NCBI GenBank assembly: GCA_019637335.1
Contig: JAHBVV010000001.1
Location: 1-64,000, forward strand
Length of the DNA: 64,000 bases
Reading direction: 5' to 3'
From: Candidatus Hydrogenedentota bacterium
Lineage (GTDB): Bacteria; Hydrogenedentota; Hydrogenedentia; Hydrogenedentales; JAEUWI01
Shown: one piece after another, positions 56,242 to 59,382 of the stretch
Layout of the letters: the number at the start of each line of letters is the position of its first letter
How positions within the stretch are numbered: position 1 is the first letter of the stretch
Notes under the pieces: generated by a model
What the model saw: only the letters and a program-made list of their open reading frames with translations
What the model was told of the DNA's origin: nothing
Database searches by the model: none
Made by a program: the position numbers and the translations under genes

Positions 56242-59200
56242 ATGTCTGCTCAAGTTATTTCTCTCTGTTTTGTGCGCTTCTTCCTCGTATCGCGGATTCG
56301 GGCCGCGGCGACGGCGCTGATCCTGGCCGCGCTCGCCAGTCCGCTGGCCGCGCCCGCCGTCGCGGAGGTTATATTCGAGTCCGGGACAATCGCCTTGGCG
56401 TCTGCGGGCACGCCCGGCTGCACCGACAGCGCACCTCCCTTCGGCGAAGAGGCGCTGGGTTACGAAGGTTCGGGCGAATGTTCGATCGATTTCGGGGGCG
56501 CCAGCGCCACCGCGCGCGCGACCAATACCTTCGCCATCATCGGCGGGCGGGACAATGTCACCGGTTTTGACGTGAACACGGCCGCGAATTTCAACCTGAC
56601 CCGGTCCGATGACGCCCCCACGATCGATCCGCGCGCGTCGACCTCCATCTCCGCGCGCTTTACCGTGACGGAGACGATGATATTCGAGGTGACGGGCGAC
56701 GCGACGGCCACCGCTGCGGATTCCCGCGCGAATCCCAGTGTTCGCCGGACGGATGCGTCCGTGAACATCTTCTTCCGGCCCGTGGGCGCCTCGGGCGGCC
56801 TGGGCGGTTCCGCCATCGGGGACGCCACCCAGCCGCCGCAGAACAACAACTTCGACCAGCAGGGCACGCTTCCTCCGGGTGAGTACGAACTGCTTTGCTT
56901 CGTGAACGTCAGCGCGAGTGCGTTTGGCGGCATCGGCATCCCGGGACGGACCATGGCGGCCGAAGCCACCGCCACGATGGAAATTCGCTTTATGCCGGTC
57001 CCGCCCACGGGCGGTTGCTGCATCGACGGCTTCTGCGACACCCTGACCGAGGCGGAGTGCCGGGATGCGGGCGGCGTCTATGCCGGCGACAACCAGGACT
57101 GCGTGGATTGCGTGGTAGAGGAATGCGATCTGCGCTGGATCGACGCGGCGGGCGGGAATCTGGGCACGGCGTCGAACTGGGATCCGGCGCAGGTTCCCCG
57201 GGACGACGGCGACGGCTGCAACAACCTCACCTTCAACCTGTCGGGCGAGTACTCCGTGAATTTTGAAACCCGCGCCGCAAACGCCCTGTTCCTGCGCGAC
57301 GGCAACGTGGAGTTTTCCGGCACGCGACTGGCCCTCTCCGGCCGGCCCGGCGGCGGGGGCGGTGCGGGCCCCCTGCCGCCCGCCCTGGGCGTGGGCAACG
57401 GCGCCGTGCTGTTCCTGAGCGGCGGGGAGATTGCGCCCGACACCGCGATCATCGGGGATGTGGGCTCGGGCTCCTCAAGCCGCTTGACGGTCTCGGGCAA
57501 TGGCGCGCGGCTCAACGTGGCGGATTCCCTGGTCGTCGGCGATGTGATGGATGGTACGCTCACCATCACCGACACCGGGCGCGTGGACAGCGGCGACGCC
57601 ATTGTAGGCCGCGGTGTAGTCGCGAGCAGCGCGGGATCGGATGTACTGATCAACAGCGGCGGCGAATGGACCCACGCCGATCTCACGGTCGGCCTCTTCG
57701 CTCCCGGTTTCGTTACCGTCCGTGGCGGCGGCGCCATGGTGTCCAACACGGCCACCATCGGCGCGAACGCGGATACCCAGGGGGACGTGCTGGTGACGGG
57801 GGCGGATTCGGGGTGGCGCGTGACCGGGCTCGCCACGATTGGCGGGGAAGGCACGGGCGCGCTGAACATTGAGGAACTTGGCCTGGTTACCGCCGACGCC
57901 CTGGTGGTCGGCACGGGCGACGGCGAGTCCGGCGGCATCATCGTTCGCGGGGCGGCCGCCATACTCGAGCGCTCCACCCTCGAAGTCGAAACGGGGGACC
58001 TGGTGTTGGGCGACGGCGGCACGGGAACGCTCGCGCTTCTCGAAGGCGGGACCCTGCGCGCCGCGGGCGACTTCATTGTGGGCGCCAGTGGCCTGCTGGC
58101 TTCCTTCCTCGTGGACGGCGCACAGAACGATGTGACTTCGGGCATGGCAATCGCCGGTCACCTGCGCCTGGGTACGGGCGCGGCAGTCTCACAGGGCGTC
58201 TTCGAGAATGGCGGCGCCGGCGCCGCGGGCACGGCCACGATCGGCGACGGTGGGCAGGGTCAACTATTCATCAGCAATCTGGGCCGATTCGTGGTCATGG
58301 CCAACGAGGAAGAGACGCATTTCGGCGATCTGGTGATTGGGGACGGCAGCCAGGGCAGCGTCACGGTCGAATCGGACGGCGAATTGGAGGCGGGCAGCAT
58401 TACCGTAAGCCAGGGCGGCGGCGGCGTGGGTTCGCTCACCGTGCGCAACGCCACCGTCGCCTCCACCCGGATCGGGATTACCATCGGCCAGGGCGGCGAC
58501 TCGGCCATCATGACCGTCGAAGGCGCGGGCAGCGTTCAGAGCGCCACCGGCTTCTTCATCGGCGCGAGCGGCGGCGCGGCCAGCGTGACGTTGGCGGGCG
58601 ACGCTTCCGACGCTCCCGCGCAGATTAACGTTACCGGACTTCTGGGAATCGGCCTGGCGGCAACCGAATCCTCCCTGACCCTGACCCGCAACGCGGCGGT
58701 CACCGCGGGCGAGATTATCGTGGGCGGCAACGCGCCGGGCCTCCTGGCCATCCTGGAGAACTCCGTGGTGACGTCTCCCACGACGACCGTGCGGGCGGAA
58801 GGCTTGCTTATCGGCGATGTGAACACGCCGGAGAAGCAGGCCGGTGGCGCGGATGCGCCCAATCTCGAGGGCGACCTCATCGTGGAGGAAGGGGGCCGTG
58901 TTCGCGTCAGCGCGGGTGCGACACCCGCCCTTCGCGTCAGCGGCAACGCCACACTCAACGGCACACTCGAAGTTGAGTTCTCGGACGAAGCCGGCCTCGC
59001 GGCGGGCAACACGCTCAGTCTGCTCCGCGTGGACGGCGAAACAACAGGCGAATTCACCGAAGTGACGTTCCCCACCCGCAGCGCGGATTTTGACGGCGAC
59101 CTCTCACTGGTGGACGGCGAACTGGTGCTCGCGGTCAATAACCCCGGCACGCCGCTCGGCGGTGAGGGCGAAGGTGAGGGCGAAGGTGAGGGCGAAGGTG

Positions 59201-59382
59201 AAGGTGAGGGCGAAGGCGAGGGCGAAGGCGAAGGCGAAGGCGAGCCGCAGCCGTTCAATTGCAGCCTCTCGAAATCCGCGTTGGCCGAGGGCCTGCACCG
59301 CGTCTTCGGCGATTTGTTCCTGCTTGGCGCCGCGCTGGCCGGACTCGCCTGCTTCCGGTTCCGGAACGGGGAGGGGATGTAA
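56242..59382 (+). CDS. giant repeat-rich surface protein with Gly-Glu linker and C-terminal membrane segment
   Basis: This 1046-residue protein has a signal peptide (ATALILAALASPLAAPAVA), then a beta-rich domain to about residue 250. Next is a Cys-rich GGCCIDGFCDTLTEAECRDAGGVYAGDNQDCVDC motif (about 255-290) that recurs in Planctomycetes-type exported proteins. About 600 residues of autotransporter-like beta-helix repeats follow, with units such as LVVGDVMDGTLTITDTG, LVVGTGDGESGGIIV and LVIGDGSQGSVTVESDG. Residues 974-1001 are 14 Gly-Glu pairs. A lone Cys and a membrane segment (GDLFLLGAALAGLACF) end in Arg. It is likely anchored or sorted at the C-terminus. No catalytic motif seen. Confidence 0.82.
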   Translation: MSAQVISLCFVRFFLVSRIRAAATALILAALASPLAAPAVAEVIFESGTIALASAGTPGCTDSAPPFGEEALGYEGSGECSIDFGGASATARATNTFAIIGGRDNVTGFDVNTAANFNLTRSDDAPTIDPRASTSISARFTVTETMIFEVTGDATATAADSRANPSVRRTDASVNIFFRPVGASGGLGGSAIGDATQPPQNNNFDQQGTLPPGEYELLCFVNVSASAFGGIGIPGRTMAAEATATMEIRFMPVPPTGGCCIDGFCDTLTEAECRDAGGVYAGDNQDCVDCVVEECDLRWIDAAGGNLGTASNWDPAQVPRDDGDGCNNLTFNLSGEYSVNFETRAANALFLRDGNVEFSGTRLALSGRPGGGGGAGPLPPALGVGNGAVLFLSGGEIAPDTAIIGDVGSGSSSRLTVSGNGARLNVADSLVVGDVMDGTLTITDTGRVDSGDAIVGRGVVASSAGSDVLINSGGEWTHADLTVGLFAPGFVTVRGGGAMVSNTATIGANADTQGDVLVTGADSGWRVTGLATIGGEGTGALNIEELGLVTADALVVGTGDGESGGIIVRGAAAILERSTLEVETGDLVLGDGGTGTLALLEGGTLRAAGDFIVGASGLLASFLVDGAQNDVTSGMAIAGHLRLGTGAAVSQGVFENGGAGAAGTATIGDGGQGQLFISNLGRFVVMANEEETHFGDLVIGDGSQGSVTVESDGELEAGSITVSQGGGGVGSLTVRNATVASTRIGITIGQGGDSAIMTVEGAGSVQSATGFFIGASGGAASVTLAGDASDAPAQINVTGLLGIGLAATESSLTLTRNAAVTAGEIIVGGNAPGLLAILENSVVTSPTTTVRAEGLLIGDVNTPEKQAGGADAPNLEGDLIVEEGGRVRVSAGATPALRVSGNATLNGTLEVEFSDEAGLAAGNTLSLLRVDGETTGEFTEVTFPTRSADFDGDLSLVDGELVLAVNNPGTPLGGEGEGEGEGEGEGEGEGEGEGEGEGEGEPQPFNCSLSKSALAEGLHRVFGDLFLLGAALAGLACFRFRNGEGM
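59161..59244 (+). repeat. 84-bp Gly-Glu coding microsatellite
   Basis: Fourteen six-base units of GG(T/C)GA(A/G) encode the (Gly-Glu)14 linker of the giant surface protein. The mix of T/C and A/G forms shows past slippage; the unit number may differ between strains. Confidence 0.85.

Follow-up and report, generated by a model that had tools for sequence, protein, structure and literature searches.

A predicted cysteine-type C-terminal sorting tag on exported proteins of Candidatus Hydrogenedentota

What the unusual C-terminus of a large repeat protein is for, and which enzyme might act on it, are the questions raised by the gene at positions 56242–59382 of the window, the 64,000-nucleotide stretch of Candidatus Hydrogenedentota DNA under analysis. 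The sequence-only reading had described a giant beta-helix protein ending in a Gly-Glu tract, one Cys and a membrane segment with a terminal Arg, the plan of a C-terminal sorting tag. The open reading frame is real, with an ATG start on the plus strand and (GE)14 at 59161–59244, and its features are listed below.

56242..59382, plus strand: gene for the 1046-aa tagged repeat protein, ATG start, stop included
56242..56364, plus strand: putative signal peptide of ~41 aa, from sequence by a crude heuristic, cleavage site by eye
57751..57891, plus strand: best T5SS/PEP-CTERM-associated repeat (TIGR04393), residues 504–550, by NCBIfam match
59161..59244, plus strand: (Gly-Glu)14 linker, from sequence
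59245..59379, plus strand: predicted C-terminal Cys sorting tag, 45 aa, from profiles and sequence
59260..59262, plus strand: signature Cys, invariant in the 38 aligned own-genome tails and in the 38 of a mixed set
59263..59307, plus strand: 15-aa spacer with basic residues, ahead of the membrane segment
59308..59355, plus strand: Gly-Asp and short hydrophobic segment, from sequence
59356..59379, plus strand: basic end RFRNGEGM, from sequence

At 1046 aa the product is large rather than giant. Its tail reads PQPFNC-SLSKSALAEGLHRVF-GD-LFLLGAALAGLACF-RFRNGEGM, which gives a plan of Asn-Cys, a 15-aa spacer, Gly-Asp, a short hydrophobic helix and Arg-x-Arg. Two details of the first description needed correction, as a second Cys lies inside the hydrophobic segment and the chain ends in RFRNGEGM rather than at an Arg. 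The TIGR04393 'T5SS/PEP-CTERM-associated repeat' matches three stretches of the protein and scores 63.2 bits (cut-off 23), while a Pfam scan finds no family at cut-off and no autotransporter barrel. The protein shares TIGR04393 repeats with type V autotransporter passengers but has a membrane-helix tail in place of the barrel domain. A beta-helix fold is plausible judging from the repeat family, but gains no support from the single-sequence AlphaFold2 model of the passenger, which is mostly strands at a low mean pLDDT of 45.4.

The tail recurs across the 7.16-Mb genome. A DNA pattern encoding (GE)3 and then Cys occurs at 32 places, and the loci around them contain 26 ORFs whose C-terminal tail has both a GE run and a Cys. 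A profile built from 25 of these tails (A1) gives 44 genome matches, comprising the 25 inputs, 14 new tails, and five matches at E >1 that are not tails. All 14 new tails lie at a protein C-terminus and contain the Cys, and at least 11 of them carry a GE run by our reading of the counts. With one tail added by hand (C15:95595), 40 proteins of the genome end in this element, so the earlier concern that it might occur only once does not apply. A second profile (A2) was made from 38 of the 40, leaving out the degenerate C14:77344 and the weak C37:44371 and including the hand-added tail; its 38 own-genome matches at E ≤1e-3 are mostly so by construction.

Alignment of the A2 tails defines the element. 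The Cys is invariant (38/38), the residue preceding it is Gly in 28 tails, and a Gly-Asp, Ala-Asp or Ser-Asp pair lies downstream in 34, at a median distance of 15 residues. Tails from foreign genomes have a second Cys at +2 in 12 of 26 cases. The tag common to ~40 proteins is G/N-Cys, a ~15-aa spacer, GD, a short hydrophobic segment and Arg or Lys. The Gly-Glu tract, which had been grouped with the Cys and membrane segment, is a frequent linker alongside the tag and stands outside the tag proper. It is the usual linker in this genome and may be followed by two EF-hand-like motifs before the tag, as in several own-genome tails. GE runs also occur inside proteins (L017, L019, L021, L022, L027, L032). 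In L031 (own genome, C3:19100–26000) and others they are written in mixed codons, reaching 97 repeats in L031.

Such plentiful repeats raise the concern that the similarity of the tails is an artefact of low complexity or of hydrophobic C-termini in general. The (GE)5 pattern matches the genome 1880 times; read backwards, it matches 17 times. Yet the profiles begin near the Cys and mostly leave the GE run out, and several f3 tails come after EF-hands with no GE run. A profile made from 26 foreign-genome tails matched 31 of 2978 own-genome ORFs at E <0.01, 30 of them finishing within 20 aa of the C-terminus. These ORFs derive from 360,821 bases of loci picked for tails or candidate enzymes, so the fraction is not a genome rate. 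The same 2978 ORFs gave no match when reversed and none when shuffled, so composition by itself yields no matches, and an artefact is very improbable.

The proteins that carry the tag are predicted to be secreted and of surface type. Ten of the 26 ORFs were scanned for domains, revealing right-handed Beta_helix, PKD, Ig-like, cadherin-like, CHRD and LTD (lamin-tail) domains. By a crude rule, an N-terminus resembling a signal peptide is present in 28 of the 35 long tail ORFs, compared with 27 of 210 long ORFs that lack the tail, the latter being taken from the same loci with spurious frames included. The sorting-tag plan first proposed for this C-terminus is upheld, and the tail recurs on unrelated exported proteins genome-wide. 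We consider it probable, at roughly 0.68, that the product of 56242–59382 is a Sec-exported surface protein with a phylum-specific C-terminal sorting tag. A simpler role as a membrane anchor that is never processed would agree with the lack of any sign of cleavage in the sequence. The invariant Cys, the conserved GD and the likeness of tails across unrelated proteins and genera nonetheless exceed what an anchor needs, making this role quite improbable.

Among known tag families, the PEP-, GlyGly- and Synerg-types had been suggested. The comparison holds for the general plan, but the tail comes nearest to the Cys tags MYXO-CTERM and JDVT-CTERM, which had not been named. In NCBIfam 20.0, no match above cut-off was seen for the 38 own tails, for which bits were given for the first member only, and two sets of 10 tails likewise contained none above cut-off. 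The EF-hand part of one sequence in those sets matched other models, all below cut-off. This agrees with the earlier impression that the tail fits no described family exactly. The nearest models are JDVT-CTERM, MYXO-CTERM, VPDSG-CTERM and PVV-CTERM.

MYXO-CTERM of Myxococcota offers the closest parallel. PMC11980579 reports Cys-dependent cleavage of this tag by the CPBP protease MrtX, which has an EExxxR motif, and puts forward lipidation as a proposal. Like MYXO-CTERM, the Hydrogenedentota tails have a tripartite architecture with an invariant Cys, a hydrophobic helix and a basic end, and occur on dozens of exported proteins per genome behind a disordered region. In contrast, they come from another phylum, have a conserved GD opening the hydrophobic segment, and match the MYXO-CTERM models rarely and weakly. 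TIGR03901 matched three of the 38 own tails (best E 0.0082) and three of one set of 10, with 11.6, 8.3, and 9.2 bits against a cut-off of 20. TIGR03382 reached 7.5 bits against 15.85 in one of 10, and neither model matched a further set of 10 tails. MrtX (NF040593) was also not listed for the four of the five own-genome CPBPs that were scanned (L038 lay outside the scan), and PF02517 may miss weak CPBPs.

The other tag families differ in various ways. JDVT-, CGP- and Synerg-CTERM are also Cys tags and pair with the CPBP-family proteases MrtJ, MrtA, and MrtS, pairings known partly from NCBIfam family names; the Cys tags other than MYXO-CTERM were reportedly defined by Haft in 2024. The JDVT-CTERM model (NF033191) matched one of the 38 own tails at E 0.03 and at best gave 18.3 bits for a foreign-genome tail, below its cut-off of 27, while the CGP-CTERM and Synerg-CTERM models were not listed for the tails. 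CGP-CTERM has a Cys-Gly-Pro motif and then a membrane segment, is possibly lipid-modified and belongs to Thermococcales, as described in PMC4870337. GlyGly-CTERM, the rhombosortase tag, shares the tripartite plan and, with the 28 of 38 own tails that have Gly ahead of the Cys, a Gly in the signature, but is defined without Cys in PMC3237569, whereas every aligned own tail contains one. PEP-CTERM and VPDSG-CTERM share the tripartite plan, exosortases are present in the genome, and TIGR04393 is by name a repeat of PEP-CTERM proteins. The tag has neither a PEP nor a VPDSG motif, however. No PEP-CTERM model was listed for the 38 own tails under the HMMER filters, and the VPDSG-CTERM model matched five of them, the one shown having 18.5 bits against 22 within the hydrophobic end. 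We read the tail as a new C-terminal sorting tag of the Cys type, one that appears related to MYXO-CTERM by plan, not by membership.

By analogy with MYXO-CTERM, the tail would stall in the inner membrane after export, where its Cys may be lipid-modified. A membrane protease would then cut distal to the Cys, leaving the protein anchored by its lipid, and the protein would be moved to the surface. The acidic (GE)n tract would act as a flexible spacer.

The tag is widespread within the phylum. At E ≤1e-3 it is found in 33 of 68 genomes and 18 of 44 genera. When the remaining 35 genomes were searched less strictly, 19 gave matches at E ≤0.3, and those retrieved as loci, a part of the matches, were read by eye. 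Some are Cys tails, in f3, f6, f10 and a few cases in f11, whereas others have no Cys. The tail is rare in f11, where G043 alone passes the strict cut-off. A 400-kb sample of the tail-free f11 genome G046 contained no accepted tail-like C-terminus by a heuristic that finds ~15 of 26 known tails. Several f11 proteins (e.g. L144, L148, L171) end in Gly-Asp or Ala-Asp, a hydrophobic helix and an Arg-rich end with no Cys, which is perhaps a variant of the tag.

The expectation that the tailed proteins could be collected and a shared processing enzyme found has been realised in part: 40 proteins were collected, and three candidate enzymes emerged, none of them established. The genome encodes five PF02517 (CPBP) proteins and two classical exosortases. 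Some of the possible enzymes could be set aside. L036, a CPBP at C6, is nearly confined to one genus, with E <1e-20 in only six of 68 genomes including the tail-free G024, and L035, in which an ABC permease is fused to a CPBP, exceeds the cut-off of NF041647. Classical exosortases fail as the sole enzyme, as PF09721 has no match (E ≤0.001) in f6 (4/4), f8 (2/2), and G018–G020, all of which have strict or loose tail matches.

Of the remaining CPBPs, L037 has the canonical EExxxR motif, which is that of the proven enzyme MrtX as given in PMC11980579. It occurs in 58 of the 68 genomes, which are fragmented MAGs: 31 of the 33 with the tail have it, as do 27 of the 35 without. All 18 tail-positive genera have L037, and none of the four tail-free f5 genomes (G023, G024, G026, G027) does. 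This association gives Fisher p 0.085 by genome and 0.031 by genus with relatedness ignored, and L037 is also present in f11 genomes without a detectable tail, e.g. G046–G049. The protein falls far below all Mrt cut-offs, and no tail adjoins its gene in 20 loci. Its gene lies with two GNATs, an ABC ATPase, an ABC-2 permease and an RRE/SPASM-like protein of ~640 aa, an order kept in the 20 compared loci, some of which are cut by contig ends. The last protein of the operon has a SPASM domain (33.8 bits against a cut-off of 27), a hint at the maturation of peptides and not at sorting, and the whole resembles an operon for peptide maturation and export. Processing of the tag by L037 is hence considered unlikely. 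The same gene order is seen phylum-wide, in L173, L182, and 18 further loci, and at C26:13000–31000 of this genome.

A second alternative is processing by a new exosortase/archaeosortase-like family, in which case the tail Cys would be incidental. Found through weak PF09721 matches, this family has an invariant Cys, Arg, and His and is nearest to XrtH, below its cut-off. TIGR04178 matches all eight scanned members above cut-off, at 50.6–62.8 bits against 23. A model of one protein has a pLDDT of 85.5, and Foldseek found no PDB match for it at E ≤0.001. Members (L223–L242; L272–L306) have a long region preceding the catalytic part, and a conserved ORF follows downstream or is fused to them; 32 of the L272–L306 records are named Hydrogenedentota or similar and three 'uncultured bacterium'. 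Of the 68 genomes, 50 encode a member, among them 28 of the 33 with the tail and 22 of the 35 without it, counts that come from fragmented MAGs and ignore relatedness. The exosortase-like gene of G032 has a tail gene immediately upstream, but beyond this case no tail adjoins one in 20 + 40 loci (the sets overlap). The gene is also present in the tail-free G024 and G026, while the genome studied here, with 40 tails, has no match at 96% completeness, where a gap is possible. Among the tags linked to exosortases we know of none that has an invariant Cys. This route to processing also seems unlikely.

The most likely processing enzyme is a divergent CPBP family, L039, a tentative candidate found through weak PF02517 matches and present in this genome on C22. 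Its gene comes directly after nth, the gene for endonuclease III, and polX also precedes it in most loci; the loci are L332–L340, L342, L344, L345, and L350. Six of 13 members match the archaeomyxosortase MrtA (NF040590) at E ≤0.1, with a best E of 1.6e-7, and MrtJ is the sole other NCBIfam family listed. The family is favoured because it is present in the genome itself, because its listed relatives are only myxosortase-type proteases, and because known Cys tags pair with such enzymes. Like the tag, which stays below the JDVT-CTERM cut-off, the enzyme remains distant from the known pairs: L332 has 28.9 bits against the MrtA cut-off of 200, and the motif is WExxxR instead of EExxxR. The family is present in the own genome, and in an insensitive Pfam search of 25 genomes it was found in 14 of 21 tail-positive genomes against none of four tail-negative ones (Fisher p 0.026, relatedness ignored), which leaves seven tail-positive genomes without a member, bar one doubtful match in G025. 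No tail gene lies near the family in 13 loci, where the neighbours are DNA repair genes. This setting counts against it, as does the broken motif of L338 from the tail-positive G018, which has Ser at the Glu position. Several genomes also encode a family of membrane proteins of ~450 aa (L346–L349) that match CPBP weakly and carry QQ instead of EE.

A wider picture can be drawn more tentatively still, in which Hydrogenedentota would possess a surface-sorting system of their own. It would combine the Cys tag, a GD-started membrane helix, a new MrtA-related bacterial protease family, and spacers, either (GE)n or EF-hands, that determine how far from the surface the proteins stand. In the open literature, a search that left most subscription papers outside its reach, no title or abstract on this tag was found. 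If the reading is correct, dozens of proteins in each genome of this uncultured phylum, so far uncharacterised, would become predicted surface proteins. It would also add one more Cys tag to a class with one experimentally shown enzyme known to us, MrtX, and it names candidate proteases that can be tested.
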